A stretch of DNA of 43,711 nucleotides from Syncephalis plumigaleata (Eukaryota; Zoopagomycota; Zoopagomycetes; Zoopagales; Piptocephalidaceae), in the NCBI GenBank assembly GCA_025201365.1, contig JAIXMF010000084.1:1-43711 (forward strand). Reading direction: 5' to 3'. This document shows, one piece after another, positions 2,445-40,914 of this stretch. Below the pieces are notes generated by a model. That model was not told where the DNA came from and searched no databases. It saw only the letters and a program-made list of their open reading frames with translations. The translations under genes and the position numbers were made by a program. Every line of letters starts with the position of its first letter. The first letter of the stretch is position 1.

Positions 2445-5433
2445 ATGAAGTTCTCTGCCGTTCTCGCTATTGCTGTCGCCGTCGTCGCTGTCTCCAGTCT
2501 GGTCGCCGTTGAAGCCAAGCCCGCATTGGCCCGTCGTGGTATGTCACAGGAACAACAAGAACAATGATAGTAATGGACACTAGCTGACTCATTAATGACT
2601 GCTCGATAGCTGGCAAGTCTACCATTTGACCACAATGTCCCGTGTATTAACCATGCTGTAACACTATTTGTACATTTATTCCGTCAATAGTTGGTATGTT
2701 GTCCGTGTAATAATGATTCGATTCAATGTGCTAACCGTAATATAATCATGCTCAATCCTCATGTGTGTCTATTCCGATAGTCGAACGTAGGTTTGCCGAT
2801 AAATAAATAAACCACCTGACATGCTACTAATCATACTGCCCTATCGACACGGTACATGGATCAATAGACTGTAAGTAGTAGTCATGCCATGCTGACCATA
2901 CCATTCAATGAGCTAACCATCCATATGGAATTATTCCACAAATAGATGGTACGTATGACTACTATGGCAGTATCAGTTGATGTACTAACCATAGTCTATT
3001 GCTTTATTGCTTACCGACGATTACCGATAGTTAGTAAGTTCATGTATATTCATAGTTGTTTTGACTCGCTAATCACATCATAATGTTTATTCCGCCTATT
3101 AATTTGTTAATAATAGCTGGTAAACCATTCTATTAAGTACATCATGTACTATGCTAATTGTAGTGTAAATCAAACCATATGTAATTACCATTTCAAGAGG
3201 ACGTAAGTTACCATACTGATCGTAATGAATGAAGTACTAACTACATTATGACACACAACTTATGTATGTTTCTGTATGCTAGGCTGTAAGTTACCATCCT
3301 GATTGCAATGAATGAGGTACTGACTACGATATGGCACACGATCTACGTATGTTTCTGTATGCTAGGCTGTAAGTTACCATCCTGATTACAATGAATAAAG
3401 TACTGATTATGTTATGACACACAATTTGCGTGCGTTTTTGTATGCTAGGCTGTAAGTTATCATTTTGATTGCAATGCATGGGGTACTAACTACGATATGG
3501 CACACGATCTACGCATGTTCCTGTATGATAGAAAGTACGTAACCATTCTGATTGCAATGAATGAAGTACTGATTATGTTATGACACACAATTTACGTGTG
3601 TTTTTGTATGCTAGGCTGTAAGTTACCATCCTAATTGCAATGCATGGGGTACTAACTACGATATGGCACACGATCTACGCATGTTCCTGTATGATAGGAG
3701 GTAAGTTGCCATTCTGACAGCAATGAATGAGGTACTAACTACGATATGACAATAACCTACGTATGTTTTTGTACAATAGGGCGTAAGTTATCATTTTGAT
3801 TGCAATGAATGAGGTACTGACTACGATATGGCACACGATCTACGCATGTTTCTGTATGATAGAGAGTAAGTTACCATCCTGATTACAATGCATGGGGTAC
3901 TGATTACGATATGGCACACGATCTACGCATGTTTCTGTATGCTAGGCTGTAAGTTACCATCCTGATTACAATGCATGGGATACTGACTACGATATGGCAC
4001 ACGATCTACGCATGTTCCTGTATGATAGAAAGTACGTAACCATTCTGACAGCAATGAATAAGGTACTGACTACGATATGACAAATAACCTGCGTATGGTT
4101 TTGTACAATAGGGCGTAAGTTATCATTTTGATTGCAATGAATGAGGTACTGACTACGATATGACACACGATCTACGCATGTTTCTGTATGCTAGGCTGTA
4201 AGTTACCATCCTGATTGCAATGAATGAGGTACTGACTACGATATGGCACACGATCTACGCATGTTCCTGTATGATAGGAGGTAAGTTACCATCCTGATTG
4301 CAATAAATGAGGTACTGACTACGATATGGCACACGATTTGCGTATGTTTTTGTACAATAGGGCGTAAGTTATCATTTTGATTGTAATGAATGAAGTACTG
4401 ACTACGATATGGCAATAACCTGCGTATGTTCCTATATGCTAGGTTGTAAGTTATCATCCTGATTACAATGCATGTGGTACTAACTACGATATGACAAATA
4501 ACCTGCGTATGTTCCTGTATGATAGAAAGTAAGTTACCATCCTGATTGCAATAAATGAGGTACTGACTACGATATGGCACACGATTTGCGTATGTTCATG
4601 TATGCTAGCCTGTAAGTAACCATTCTGATTGCAATAAATGAGGTACTGACTACGATATGGCACACGATCTACGCATGTTTCTGTATGCTAGCCTGTAAGT
4701 AACCATTCTGATTGCAATAAATGAGGTATTGACTACGATATGGCACACGATCTACGTATGTTCCTGTATGATAGGAGGTAAGTTGCCATTCTGACAGCAA
4801 TGAATGAGGTACTAACTACGATATGGCACACGATCTACGTATGTTTTTGTATAATAGAGCGTAAGTTATCATTCTGATCGTAATAAATGAGGTACTAACT
4901 ACGATATGGCACACGATCTACGTATGTTCCTGTATGATAGGAGGTAGGTTATCATTCTGTCTGTAATGAATGGTGTACTAACTACGATCTGGCACACGAC
5001 TTACGTATGTTCTTGTATGATAGAGAGTAAGTAACCATCCTGATCGTAATGAATGAGGTACTAACTACAATATGATAAATAACCTGGGTATGTTTTTGTA
5101 CAATAGGGCGTAAGTTACCGTCCTGACTACAATGTATGGGGTACTAACTACGATATGGCACACGATCTACGTATGCTCCTGTATGATAGAACGTAAGTTA
5201 TTATCCTGATTACAATGAATGAAGTACTAGCTACGATATGACAATAACCTGCGTATGTTCCTGTATGATAGAACGTAAGTTATCATCCTGATTGCAATAA
5301 ATGAGGTACTGACTACGATATAACAAATAACCTACGTATGTTTTTGTATATCAGTCTGTAAGTCATTACTCCAATCGTCATCTACGATATACTAATCACA
5401 ATACAATCCACACTAATTGAATGATAGCCTTAA
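2445..5433 (+). CDS. Gene A: secreted small protein built from one-codon micro-exons
   Basis: Exon 1 (2445-2538) encodes a signal peptide, MKFSAVLAIAVAVV.., ending ..SLVAVEA before a mature start KPALARR. It is followed by at least 35 internal exons. Those at 2610, 2691, 2868, 2946, 3031 and 3117 are 3 nt, 2781-2786 is 6 nt, and 3198-3202 is 5 nt (3 nt if the second AG is used). Then 26 exons of exactly 3 nt start at 3283, 3366, 3449, 3532, 3615, 3698, 3780, 3863, 3946, 4029, 4112, 4195, 4278, 4361, 4443, 4526, 4609, 4692, 4775, 4858, 4941, 5024, 5107, 5190, 5272 and 5355. Each is bounded by TAG or CAG and GTAAGT, GTACGT or GTAGGT. With the 5-nt exon, all 26 read as whole codons (GCT, AAA, GAG, GGC, AGA, GTT, CCT, AGC, AAC, TCT) with no stop, ending at CCT TAA in 5428-5436. 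The product is 68 aa, Ala/Glu/Lys/Gly-rich. A dibasic ARR lies seven residues after the predicted cleavage. Function unknown. Intron 2 has a GC donor (2613). Introns are over 90 percent of the gene. Exon borders are well supported; the reading phase is less certain. Confidence 0.72.
3203..5357 (+). repeat. Tandem array of 83-bp intron plus one-codon-exon units
   Basis: Twenty-six units, each an intron of 79 or 80 nt plus a 3-nt exon. The unit reads GTAAGTTACC..CTGATTGCAATGAATGAGG, then TACTAACTACGATATG or TACTGAC.., CACACGATCTACGTATGT, and TGTATGCTAG, TGTATGATAG or TGTACAATAG. Introns are nearly identical to each other while the 3-nt exons differ. The acceptor subtype goes with the codon: GCTAG precedes GCT or CCT, GATAG precedes AAA, GAG, AGA or AAC, and ACAATAG precedes GGC. 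Units were therefore duplicated together with the exon they precede. Confidence 0.92.
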
Positions 5434-5488
5434 GCAGTAAGTAATAATCCACAATGATCATACCCATACTAATCCATTATGATTACAG

Positions 5489-5663
5489 AACAAGACAAGG
5501 ACATCATCAAGTAGATATTATAGGTATTCAAGTCAAGAATGTATCGGTACAAGACCCTCATTTAGTATCCATGTCATTCAAGTCATTATTCCTTGGTACA
5601 ACAACAAGCAGTATATCTACAAGATCATTCAATCATTTACTGAATAAATATGTCCTATTCTGA
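5489..5663 (+). other. Terminal exon of gene A with a conserved open frame
   Basis: The exon follows a clear acceptor (GATTACAG, 5481-5488). From 5490 it is open for 57 codons to TGA at 5661-5663, encoding TRQGHHQVDIIGIQVKN.. and ending NHLLNKYVLF. Gene B has the same frame to 38053. The two differ by a few substitutions and by exactly two 3-nt indels, both on codon borders, which suggests selection on protein. In the one-codon-per-exon phase used for gene A the stop at 5431 makes this 3' UTR. It is reached in frame if the micro-exons are read in phase 2, or if the 2-nt exon CA (acceptor CTTAAG at 5434) replaces the 9-nt exon. Confidence 0.55.
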
Positions 5664-10392: not shown

Positions 10393-12030
10393 ATGTCTAC
10401 TACTATTACTACTACTACTGAAATATCGAGTAATTCCAACTCGTCTTGTAGATTACTAGTTTGTCTGAGTATTCTTCCATTTCATGATCAGCGTGTCTTT
10501 CGTAGTCTACTTGGTCATACCGCATTATTGCGTTTATCAGCATGTTGTCACTCGTTAAGAAGTAGTATTCGAAATGATAGAGCATTATGGCAAGCACTAT
10601 ACCATAGGGATTTCCTATCGGGAACCTATTATGCTAAGGAAATGGATTTCGTATTATGGTGTATACGCACGGATGACAACAATCCATGTACATCGGATAA
10701 ACGAGCCGATCTACTAGAGAATGTGGACTGGTACAACACATATCGTCGACGAGTGAGCACCGAGAATAATTGGCGATATGGACGATGCAAGACCACGTAT
10801 ATCAATATGGAAGCTGACAATGATGGAGTACGCTATCGCAAAGATGTTGATAATAATCGTATATTTTTCGCACTGCAAAATTATTCAGATGAAACACCAA
10901 GTCATACTTATATTTTAGAATATTTGCCGCATTCAGATCTTAGATCAAATAACAACATTGTAGATAACATTACATTCTCCACATCGTCAAACGTTCTTTT
11001 GCTAGATATGGGTAATGAAACTAACTACACTTATGTCTCGGGTGATCATTATATAGCCGCATCTCCTAGACCAATCGAGAACGATACCCACTATAATGTA
11101 AAAATACTTTCCCGCAAGCATGGCGGTATTTTCACTACATTCAATGTTCCAGCACGATATAAAGTGATGGCAGTCGAGGCGAAATGGGTATTGCTAGTGT
11201 ATGGATCACAAGAATTACATAGAATCTCGTTAAATTGTAACAGTAAGCATAGTAATTGTACAATAATGCAATATAACTAGTATTAATAATCAATGAATTT
11301 AGTGGATATAAAGGTATTCGATATAGATAATAATACTATGTGTCCGGGAAGCATTGATGGTATATGGGATGCCACTCGTCTCTATCAAACAACCAATAAT
11401 ACAGCAATAGTATACACGGCAAGAGTAGTCAAAGATGATGATACAGATCGTATTGAATGGGCATTATACCAATTCTCGAGCAATAATCATGTTGTACAAT
11501 TGCGAAATGGCTGGTTTCATCTACCTATGAGGATGGTGGATGGATGGCTAATTCCGTATAATTCATACGATTCGCATATGCTCCTTAAATTACATGGTTA
11601 CCTTGATTATGATCCATATATAATGCATAGTGTAGCATCCAGTGGTCAAAGTCATACTCCACGTAATTGCTACACTATAACTGACCAACATATACCTATT
11701 CCATTGTTAAGGGCTGGATACATGTATTCAAGGTTTAGTCCCAAATCAACAAAAGTATGGACAGACCTAACTTACAACGACGATCAAGTATTACGATTAC
11801 CGGGTACAACTTTCATCAGAGATATTATTGGAGATCTCTATGTTTTTACTGTAAGAGATCATAATCGTATAGCAAGTCGATTGCTTGTAAACATCACTAC
11901 AAAAGAAATAATACGCCAAATGGAAGCATCAAGTACACGCGGATATTTGGAGATTGATACAATGGCTGGTACAATATATCGTCCATTCGACAGCGATGTG
12001 GAAATAATACATGAATATGGCGAACTATAA
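10393..12030 (+). CDS. F-box-like protein of unknown target
   Basis: Two exons (10393-11242 and 11303-12030) joined over a 60-nt GTAAGC..TTTAG intron give 525 aa. The intron removes the in-frame stops at 11278-11290. After a Thr/Ser/Asn-rich start, residues about 24-75 (LSILPFHDQ, HTALLRLSACCHSLRSSI, ALWQALYHRDF) have the F-box pattern: a helix, the LR-LSxxCxxLR core, and W. Residues about 110-120 read WYNTYRRRV. The rest is beta-rich without clear repeats and probably forms a substrate-binding domain. F-box proteins usually bring substrates to SCF ubiquitin ligases. The target cannot be told. It is read away from the transposase remnant, with about 30 bp between the two. Confidence 0.7.
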
Positions 12031-38221: not shown

Positions 38222-38276
38222 CTGTAATCATAATGGATTAGTATGAGTATGATTATTGTGGATTATTACTTACTGC

Positions 38277-40914
38277 TTATTCTTCCTATCATTCGATTAA
38301 TGTATATCGATTTGTGATTAGTTTACCGTAGATGAAGATTGGAGTAATGACTTACGGGCTATCATACACAAGTATAGCAGAATCATGTGCCACAGGGCGA
38401 TTAGTATAGCGTATATGACGACTGGAATAATAGCTTACCCACTACCGTATAGGAACATTGATGGATCATGTGCCATATCATGTTAGTGCACCATAGATTG
38501 CAGTCATAGTGATGACTTACAGGCTGGTATACAAGAGCATACGTAGATCATATACCGCGTTGTAATTAGTACATCCATACATTGCAGTCAGAATGATCAC
38601 TTACGACCTGTTGTATAGAGACGTGTGTGGATTATACGCCGTATTATGATTAGTATCTTGTTCATCGCAGTCAGAGAGGTAACTTACAACCTAGTGTATG
38701 CAAATGTATAAATTATGTGTTATAGTGCGATTAGTACCTCATAGATTACAGTCAAAATGATAACTTACAAGCTATCATACAGGAAATCATGTGCCATAGT
38801 ATAATTAGTACCTCATTCATTGCAATCAAAATGGTAACTTACCTCCTATCATACAGAAGCATATGTGGATTAGTTGCCATATCGTAGTTAGTAGTCATAC
38901 GATACTGCGGGAATAAATACTTACAACCTGTTACACAAAACATATAAGTTGTGAGTTATACTATAATTAATACATCATAGATTACGATCATAATAATAAC
39001 TTACTTCCTATCGTATACAGGAACATATATGAATCATGTGCCATAGTATGATTAGTCCATCCGTGCATTGCAGTCAAAACGTTAACTTACTCCCTATCGT
39101 ATACAGGAGCATACATGGATCATATGTCATAGTAGCATTAGTACTCATTCATTACAATCAGAATAATAACTTACAACCTAGCATACAAGAGCGTATGTGA
39201 ATCGTATGTCGTAGCGTGGTTAGCACGGCCATAGATCACAACTAGAAACATTAACTTACGCCCTATCACGTAGAGGAATAGAGGCGAGTTGGCATGCGAT
39301 ATCGTGGTTAGCACGTCATGCATTACAGTTAGAATGATCACTTACGATCTAGCATACAGGAGCGTACGTGAATCATACGCAATATCGTAGTTAGTACGTC
39401 GTCCATTATAGTTGAAATAAAGCTTACCTCCTATCGTATAAGAATGTAAGTGGGTCATATGTCATATCGCGGTTAATACACAATCTGTTTGGTTAGAATC
39501 GTAACCTACAGCCTAACATACGGGAGCATATATGGATTGTATGCCATAGTGTAGTTAGTACGCCATTTATCGCGGTCAGAATGGAAACTTACAATCTATC
39601 ATACAGGAGACACGTAAATCATGTGCCGTATTGGTATTAGTTCATCAGGTATTACGGTCAGAATGGTAGCTTACAGCCTATCGTATAAGAGCGTATATGG
39701 ATTGTATATCGTATTGTGATTAGTACGTCATTTATTAGCGCCAGCTTAATAACTTACGCTCTATCATACACAAGCATACGTGGGCCATACATCGTAGTAC
39801 TATTAGCAATCATTATGTGTAATCAGAATACTAACTTACATTCTGTTATACAGGAATATACGTGGATTTGCATGTCGTATTGCTATTAGTACACCGTTGA
39901 TTACAATTATCTGAAACTTACTAGCTGTTATGCACAAGCATATAGATCGTGTGCAATAGAGTGGTTATAATATACACTGCAATCAGAATGGCAACCTACA
40001 GCCTGTTATACACAAACGCATAGATTGTGTGTCGTAGAATAGTTAGTACATCATTTATTGCAGTCTAGTGGTAACTTACGGTCTATCATACGCAAGCCGA
40101 TGTAGATCGCGTGCCATCTCTCAATTAGTACATTCTTGTATCACGATTAAGATGCTAACTTACGAGTATCAATACAGAGATATACGCGGATTGTGAGCCA
40201 TATTATGATTAGTGCCTCATACGCTGTAGTGAGAATGATAACTTACTTCCTAGCATACAGAAGCATACGATGATTGCGTGTCACATTGTAGTCAGTACTC
40301 CGTTCCCTATAGGTAGAATGATAACTTACAACCTGTTGTATGCAGAAACATACGTGAATTGTATTCCGCAATAAAATTAGTGCATCTATACGTTGCAGTC
40401 ATAATGATAACTTACAAGCTGTCATACAGGACATATGTAGAACAGTGCACAGCATAGTTAGCGCATACATCCATTGTAGTCAAAATGGTAGCTTACAGGC
40501 TGGTATACAAGAGGCGTTCGTGGATCGGCAACAAATATGATAGTACAAATAATTTATAATCGGAATAATAACTTACATCCTCTTGAAATGGTAGTCACAC
40601 ACAATTATGTTACGATTAGCATAGTCCTTGCTACAATCAATAGAATAGCTTACCAACTATTATTAACAAATTAATAGATAGAATAAACATTATGATGGAT
40701 TAGCACGTCAAAGCAATCATTTGATATACATGAACTTACGTTCTATCGGTAATCATCAGTAGACAATGAAACAATAGGTTACGATTAGTATATCAATTGA
40801 TAGGATCACGGCCAGACATACCAGGAAGATCCAGGAAGGGACTAGCTTCAACGGCGACCAGACTGGTGAGACGACAACAGCGACGGCAATAGCGATAACG
40901 GTAGAGAACTTCAT
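38277..40914 (-). CDS. Gene B: inverted paralogue of gene A, one-codon micro-exons
   Basis: Exon 1 (40914-40822) starts MKFSTVIAIAVAVVV. It is followed by AAC (40742), TTG (40656), AGGAT (40581-40577, GAT if the second AG is used), then 3-nt exons whose first bases are 40499, 40418, 40332, 40249, 40082, 40002, 39924, 39842, 39760, 39677, 39595, 39512, 39430, 39348, 39262, 39177, 39093, 39007, 38927, 38845, 38771, 38690, 38607, 38523, 38441 and 38358. A 12-nt exon (38285-38274, GAAGAATAAGCA) closes the array. As whole codons, every exon from GAT on is a sense codon up to TAA at 38279-38277, the same stop site as gene A. Exon 1 is 93 nt rather than 94, one base short against gene A inside the signal-peptide part. 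Restoring the ancestral phase would give a VEA|SPFLDLPELED.. start; as written the frame is off unless GAT is used. A further unit at 40166-40164 (CTC) has lost its AG. It may be a functional paralogue or a decaying one. Confidence 0.62.
38286..40576 (-). repeat. Diverged array of intron plus one-codon-exon units in gene B
   Basis: Twenty-seven units with a pitch of 74-86 bp. On the minus strand each has GTAAGT, GTAAGC or GTAGGT, then an ACTAAT/GCTAAC-type branch site, and TAG or CAG before the 3-nt exon. Unlike gene A the introns have diverged widely from each other, yet donor, acceptor and the 3-nt exon size are kept in all but one unit. Confidence 0.88.

Follow-up and report, generated by a model that had tools for sequence, protein, structure and literature searches.

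Exons of only a few nucleotides are thought to be hard to splice because the complexes assembled at both of their ends would collide. In the micro-exon genes (MEGs) of schistosomes about 80% of the coding region consists of short symmetric exons of 6-36 bp, the products are secreted or membrane-exposed, and shuffling of micro-exons has been proposed (PMC5825161). Plant micro-exons of 1-15 nt demonstrate that even an exon of 1 nt can be spliced, and the same coding sequence is also found in intronless gene copies (PMC8831610). The aphid bicycle genes, which encode candidate effectors, form a large and rapidly evolving family; they have ~17 exons on average, and their many small internal exons lie in one phase (PMC9168663). 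Nearly abutting acceptors and donors are known from recursive splicing at zero-nucleotide ratchet sites, where the sequence is consumed stepwise (PMC13149111), and tandem coding units bounded by dual-specific splice sites, present in variable number, from the polyubiquitin gene UBC (PMC10809524). According to a report from 2024, functional micro-exons had been undescribed in filamentous fungi before one was found in Trichoderma (PMC11121469). Here we analyse a gene at 2445-5660 on the plus strand of a Syncephalis plumigaleata contig (JAIXMF010000084.1, assembly GCA_025201365.1), of which the whole stretch from position 1 to 43,711 is referred to as the window. This gene belongs to what is very probably a large family in which nearly each exon after the signal peptide would be a single codon between introns of ~80 nt. 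Among the papers listed by searches of an open-access library, which holds neither subscription papers nor preprints, none had a title or abstract describing serial one-codon exons.

Exons were called with a generic splice-site model that is blind to the reading frame and untrained on the array, and every exon of the window gene was placed after the branch-site threshold had been relaxed, the stricter threshold missing part of the 3' end. Between exon 1 at 2445-2538 and a terminal exon starting at 5489 this model set 35 internal exons at 2610-5436, 32 of them of 3 nt and one each of 5, 6 and 9 nt (AGGAC, TCGAAC and CCTTAAGCA, respectively). It thereby recovered the number and positions of the 3-nt exons in series, the three exceptions, the coordinates of exon 1 and the start of the terminal exon that had been proposed from the letters alone in an initial inspection, hereafter the sequence-only reading. 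The intron lengths of 70-87 nt given there hold for all introns but the last, which measures 52 nt. The exons are in phase 1 through 3119, AGGAC (3198-3202) shifts this to phase 0, and in the phase thus established the 26 three-nt exons that follow as whole codons at 3283-5357 all read as sense, the frame closing on CCT TAA as initially read. Since 116 exonic nt lie within the 2950 nt from exon 1 to the terminal exon, ~96% of this region is intron; complete splicing would remove ~2.8 kb, and the earlier figure of ~2 kb was too low. The predicted mature peptide is AVVEHYVTEDAAAKAEGRAKGAEGVKPPESERGNNSP.

The gene described in the sequence-only reading is no isolated oddity; it is one member of a large family. 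Its signal-peptide exon has at least 150 matches of 63-100% identity in the 32.6-Mb genome of 383 contigs (150 of 170 candidates scored). Among 69 distinct loci selected for the intron motif, for the best match to the signal peptide or, in 20 cases, for a long open frame, 49 have a donor after the RR codons and at least two short exons, and 20 are without a donor there. This set includes two near-copy pairs (window/L036 and L038/L055). By their positions L037 and L040 are allelic, too, and further alleles may be counted twice. Full or partial models were built for 41 loci, 24 of which extend to the common 3' exon. Their 864 internal exons comprise 749 of 3 nt, 40 of 9 nt, 37 of 5 nt, 18 of 6 nt, 9 of 2 nt and 11 longer ones. 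Each model holds 6-43 three-nt exons; in L018, 42 of them follow one another without a break, and region L031 contains 43 chained introns and 41 three-nt exons. Chains of linked introns separated by exons of at most 9 nt reached 8-44 per locus at the 41 loci, compared to 0-2 on the reverse complement and 1-4 in the longest of five dinucleotide shuffles.

Exon 1 measures 94 nt in 38 of the 41 models and 97 nt in two, and both lengths place the next exons in phase 1, phase 0 following after a phase-setting exon of 5 or 2 nt that is present in 40/41 models. In L026, L067 and L072 a 2-nt exon replaces the 5-nt one with an identical phase change. An exon bearing TAAGC or TAAAC precedes the 3' exon in all 24 complete models. 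Downstream of the phase-setting exon, 606 of 608 three-nt exons are sense codons in the codon frame, and the two stops are both TGA (in L029 and L059, downstream of a 2-nt exon); positional composition predicts 14.5 stops among the 608 and pooled composition 29. The other two frames contain 6/568 and 77/568 stops; the stops at T-AA and T-GA joins pointed out in the sequence-only reading fall in one of these two. None of eight spliced or intronless family proteins matched Pfam at the curated cut-off, and Rfam yielded no match in the window at gathering score. The signal-peptide alignment (A1) had no relatives in viral contigs and prokaryote genomes, both of which are unsuited to a eukaryotic gene.

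The 929 introns of the 41 models have a median length of 80 nt (5-95% range 70-84 nt). GTAAGT is the donor in 675 of them, the acceptors comprise 699 TAG, 184 CAG, 45 AAG and 1 GAG, and the commonest branch motifs are TACTAAT, TACTAAC, TGCTAAT and TACTGAC at a median distance of 43 nt from the acceptor; as the splice model required or favoured consensus motifs, these site frequencies are biased towards consensus. The introns display U2-type features, i.e. GT(GC)...AG ends, a branch motif and a usable length. The topoisomerase II gene in the window, the one ordinary gene inspected, has long open exons; between open frames it has candidate introns of 62 and 69 nt, whose branch motifs precede the acceptor by 18 and 23 nt. 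By comparison, the introns of the arrays, with a median of 80 nt, have a greater and uniform length, and their best branch motif lies ~43 nt upstream. All 93 matches to one intron motif, the only one searched with, fall inside arrays (76/76 in 35 regions and 17/17 in the window gene), and related introns recur at many loci. Within a gene, the median pairwise identity between introns amounts to 0.61-0.71 in 39 of the 41 models.

In eight aligned gene pairs the GT and AG positions differ at 4 of 763 sites, compared to 1060 of 13,164 intron-interior sites, and the model of the partner gene played no part in choosing these sites. Pooled rates per site were 0.179 for dN, 0.204 for dS and 0.081 for introns; thus, the codon exons change faster than the introns, with zero codon changes in the pair L010/L041. 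In the five changed pairs with less than 10% intron divergence, 11 of 21 changed codons differ at 2 or 3 bases, and over 43 of the 45 closest pairs, the distant ones among which may align unlike cassettes, codon differences of one, two and three bases numbered 51, 88 and 53. These multi-base changes fit whole-cassette exchange or strong positive selection. Aligned Cys codons were kept as Cys in 16/16 comparisons in the 43 pairs and in 17/17 in all 45, with synonymous TGC/TGT changes in 4 of the 16; the positions derive from the clusters L026/L032/L033, L056/L063/L066 and L057/L058, and from L018/L069 when unfiltered. A CC pair is encoded by 6 of the 41 spliced products. The motif C...CC...CWDPR is common to L026, L032 and L033 and arises only by joining of one-codon exons, and C...CC...C frameworks are found in L033 (ACEWDYNGYCCHSTPGGGFSCWDPRD) and L032 (ACQFDINGMCCHSTPDGNFSCWDPRD), with a similar one in the intronless L071 (SCDKEKCCIMDSDIC).

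By eye, 19 of the 20 loci lacking the donor are intronless, the remaining one being L073. Intronless members were assigned to L049, L050, L053, L055, L068, L071, L077, L078, L080, L082, L084-L087, L090, L092 and L093, and L014 and L027 hold one further such gene each. The signal peptide and, for the most part, the 3' region are common to them, but their mature peptides differ widely, and some are Gly- or Pro-rich. In L050, exon 1 runs straight into GCTGTTGTC-AACGCCGTGCTC, which corresponds to the joined micro-exons of L010 and L047, and the sequence is contiguous across the six junctions of exon 1, CTG, TTG, TC(G)AAC, GCC, GTG and CTC; of these, CTG, TTG and TCGAAC are common to the window gene. 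The L080 protein aligns along the spliced L037 product with one 11-residue gap and a score of 69, which none of 20,000 residue shuffles equalled (best shuffle 58). TVPWP is encoded by five one-codon exons in L037 (ACC GTC CCT TGG CCC), and L080 differs there at three third positions only. Furthermore, at the final junction L049 and L080 read straight from TAAGCA into AACAAGACAAGG. We infer that the intronless members are probably processed copies of spliced mRNAs. Altogether, splice-site conservation, Cys retention and joined intronless copies say that the tiny exons would be joined and translated, and the family anatomy likewise supports the serial joining of one-codon exons put forward in the sequence-only reading.

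We propose, with high confidence, that constitutive intron-defined splicing would build short, fast-evolving secreted peptides codon by codon from cassettes. Exon 1 would encode a signal peptide, called by eye, that ends at a dibasic RR site, and the mature peptide would be a row of cassettes, each composed of an ~80-nt spliceosomal intron and a one-codon exon. A few phase-1 exons (3, 6 or 9 nt) would precede the 5-nt, sometimes 2-nt, phase shifter, followed by the one-codon exons, the stop exon and the common 3' exon. Intron definition may operate via the strong GTAAGT donor, the TACTAAY-like branch site, the TAG acceptor and the short uniform length, and the introns, as self-contained units, would be taken out one at a time, because two splicing complexes could hardly occupy a single 3-nt exon simultaneously. 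Studies in worm and mouse cells proposed that exons of insufficient size for exon definition depend on intron definition, aided by the U1 protein PRP-40, and that a steric clash bars exon-definition complexes across a micro-exon (PMC8378409). After each removal the codon would be added to the exon that grows upstream, and the next donor would be freed. Removal may proceed strictly from 5' to 3', as suggested in the sequence-only reading; every order results in an identical mRNA, and steric constraints seem to exclude no more than simultaneous assembly across a single 3-nt exon. Unequal exchange of cassettes may gain, lose or swap whole amino acids without a frameshift, which would allow a secreted, effector-like peptide family to diversify fast. 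The signal-peptide-like start, the RR site, the small size, the Cys patterns and the family size suggest such an effector-like role, and the product is presumably a secreted, rapidly evolving peptide of this type. A more tentative extension, which we consider possible and rather doubtful, is that the array acts as a peptide diversifier at two levels, through cassette recombination in evolution and imperfect cassette inclusion in expression: as each cassette is a whole codon, each skip would give an in-frame variant, and one gene would secrete a family of related peptides.

The later units of the window gene form an 83-bp tandem repeat of 26.1 copies at 3203-5363 (detected with TRF), and the seven micro-exons preceding AGGAC lie outside it. 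A minisatellite of intron sequence grown inside an intron, with a splice-like spacing that was copied and not selected, would account for this period and its 26 copies and for haplotypes that differ by a unit-sized stretch. However, most family arrays have unlike introns, as the identity of 0.61-0.71 in 39/41 models indicates, and the second array gene of the window (38274-40914), across whose introns no tandem repeat was found, still has exact 3-nt exons; with the frame and Cys evidence also opposed to it, this explanation is improbable in the extreme. Removal of the array largely as one or a few long introns, with the 3-nt exons mostly skipped and a product that is short or of other function, could draw on the fact that, by sequence, each donor might be paired with every acceptor further downstream and that skipping preserves the frame, and animal exons below 51 nt are often skipped (PMC8378409). 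Yet the internal GT and AG are conserved while the introns drift, Cys codons are maintained through synonymous change, and the intronless L080 is, bar its one gap of 11 residues, a relative of the full-inclusion protein, which renders wholesale removal very unlikely. Both explanations were rejected for the reasons given with each.

Introner elements are near-identical introns that spread through unrelated genes, and an introner-like invasion, in which a mobile intron was inserted at nearly each codon boundary of intronless genes, could have taken the place of tandem cassette duplication. The intronless members, including L080 with its homologous protein, could then be the ancestral state, and the recurrence of related introns across many loci would be explained. 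Unlike introners, none of the 93 motif matches lies outside arrays, and haplotypes differ by about one codon-plus-intron unit. We regard this as an unlikely origin, and it bears on origin only, leaving product and splicing unchanged.

Several observations weigh against codon-by-codon splicing. The one-codon-exon architecture is a prediction from genomic sequence, and no experimental precedent for consecutive 3-nt exons was found in the open-access library searched. As modelled, 14 of the 24 complete models are open to the stop exon. A mid-array 2-nt exon breaks the expected frame in L013, L019, L025, L029 and L059, and L017 carries an in-frame stop, defects that we ascribe to decay or assembly error. 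L010, L041 and L018 are not open through slips of the splice model: a nearby donor would yield a 24-nt exon in L010 and L041 as in L047, and in L018 one intron with visible ends was missed by the model; all three were counted as modelled. L040, the second array gene of the window, is not open either, through the losses relative to L037 described below. The 69 loci were selected by motif, signal peptide and open frame, so that 49/69 is no genome-wide share. Members are shared between the aligned pairs, whose statistics are therefore non-independent, and Cys conservation is based on few independent positions. The 6-nt exon is one base short in L050, the sequence of which diverges past the junctions named above. 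Moreover, only L050 and L080 of the 19 intronless members match a spliced gene well past the signal peptide, the remaining ones giving no strong match to any spliced mature peptide, and the whole genome contained no contiguous copies of two spliced mature peptides for which these were sought.

Along the window gene, exon 1 (2445-2538, plus strand as for all exons of this gene) comprises 94 nt encoding the signal-peptide-like MKFSAVLAIAVAVVAVSSLVAVEAKPALARR and one base of the next codon, ending in phase 1. The phase-1 exons CTG (2610-2612) and TTG (2691-2693), whose junctions are contiguous in the intronless paralogue L050, are followed by TCGAAC (2781-2786, phase 1; contiguous in L050 with one base fewer), ACT (2868-2870), ATG (2946-2948), TTA (3031-3033), CTG (3117-3119) and the phase-setting AGGAC (3198-3202). 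The tandem array at 3203-5363 then consists of ~26 units of an intron, mostly of 80 nt, and one codon: GCT (Ala) at 3283-3285, 3366-3368 and 3449-3451, AAA (Lys) at 3532-3534, GCT (Ala) at 3615-3617, GAG (Glu) at 3698-3700, GGC (Gly) at 3780-3782, AGA (Arg) at 3863-3865, GCT (Ala) at 3946-3948, AAA (Lys) at 4029-4031, GGC (Gly) at 4112-4114, GCT (Ala) at 4195-4197, GAG (Glu) at 4278-4280, GGC (Gly) at 4361-4363, GTT (Val) at 4443-4445, AAA (Lys) at 4526-4528, CCT (Pro) at 4609-4611 and 4692-4694, GAG (Glu) at 4775-4777, AGC (Ser) at 4858-4860, GAG (Glu) at 4941-4943, AGA (Arg) at 5024-5026, GGC (Gly) at 5107-5109, AAC (Asn) at 5190-5192 and 5272-5274, and TCT (Ser) at 5355-5357. The 9-nt exon CCTTAAGCA (5428-5436; CCT TAA GCA) provides the last codon and the stop. 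The terminal exon (5489-5660), which is 3' untranslated and begins with AACAAGACAAGGACATCATC, has an approximate 3' end with AATAAA near 5643, and its start is joined without an intron in L049 and L080. A pyrimidine-rich imperfect repeat of the CTACTCTA type at 2329-2399 lies a short distance upstream of the start codon, and similar stretches are visible 5' of some other members.

The window contig seems to represent the second haplotype of G000:C340, since its topoisomerase II gene is 99% identical to C340:188523-190183 and L036 and L037, the C340 alleles of the two array genes of the window, are located at matching places. Between the two alleles of the main gene the length difference amounts to about one unit (72 bases of intron interior, 9 of splice sites and 3 of exons lie in gaps); the alleles also differ in two array codons (GCT at 4195-4197 is GAG and GGC at 5107-5109 is AGC in the other haplotype) and in the codon preceding the stop. 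The second one-codon-exon gene, L040 (38274-40914, minus strand), has 27 three-nt exons as modelled and is a damaged allele of L037 on C340; it has lost one base in exon 1 and one acceptor, and therefore looks decayed or misassembled. The nearest solved structure to the window topoisomerase II is PDB entry 4gfh, from budding yeast, and a match to DUF3533, a fungal family, fell below the cut-off; both fit a fungus. Open frames at 10393-11280 and 11293-12030 occupy the region 10393-12030. The former has 39 further genome matches of 83-88% identity among 40 scored of 169 candidates and no Pfam match, and represents an expanded multicopy gene family.

If real, dozens of genes that each splice a long series of one-codon exons would extend the limit known so far for runs of constitutive coding exons and provide a natural system for ordered intron-defined splicing, in which the array tests minimum exon size and packing and the intron-exon structure would serve as a frame-safe engine of protein diversification. 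Standard aligners and gene finders likely miss such exons, which is a warning for annotation and implies that comparable families may have escaped notice elsewhere. A bicycle exon encodes a stretch of protein and not one residue, and bicycle proteins contain paired CYC motifs; as far as their description goes, the internal exons there are almost all in phase 2, whereas phase 1 and then phase 0 are used here. Ratchet sites, in the account cited above, add nothing to the mRNA and lie in long introns, whereas 3 nt are kept per step here between ~80-nt introns; AG does not directly abut GT, 3 nt lying between them in 749/864 exons, and the models contain no zero-length exons. The UBC unit, as outlined in its report, is a whole ubiquitin that is included stochastically, in contrast to one codon with its own intron. 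In the plant examples considered here, micro-exons stand alone or, in one case, as a pair of 5 and 12 nt, and no series of dozens is described (PMC8831610). A fungal parallel was sought in the SP7-like effectors of mycorrhizal fungi and discarded, as their description gives one conserved intron before the first repeat and not micro-exon arrays (PMC11333574). As to MEGs, short symmetric exons make up the region after the signal peptide in the present family, exon 1 alone providing 94 of ~204 coding nt in the window gene, and its product may be secreted, judged by eye from the signal-peptide-like N-terminus. MEGs produce protein variants via alternative splicing. The phase-setting exon and the fungus-like genome set the present family apart, sequence kinship having been compared via Pfam alone, and so does exon length, 6-36 bp in the MEG account compared to 3 nt here (749/864), with up to 42 in an unbroken row in L018. 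The one-codon family would work most like an extreme, independent MEG system, but it falls outside the exon size of MEGs.

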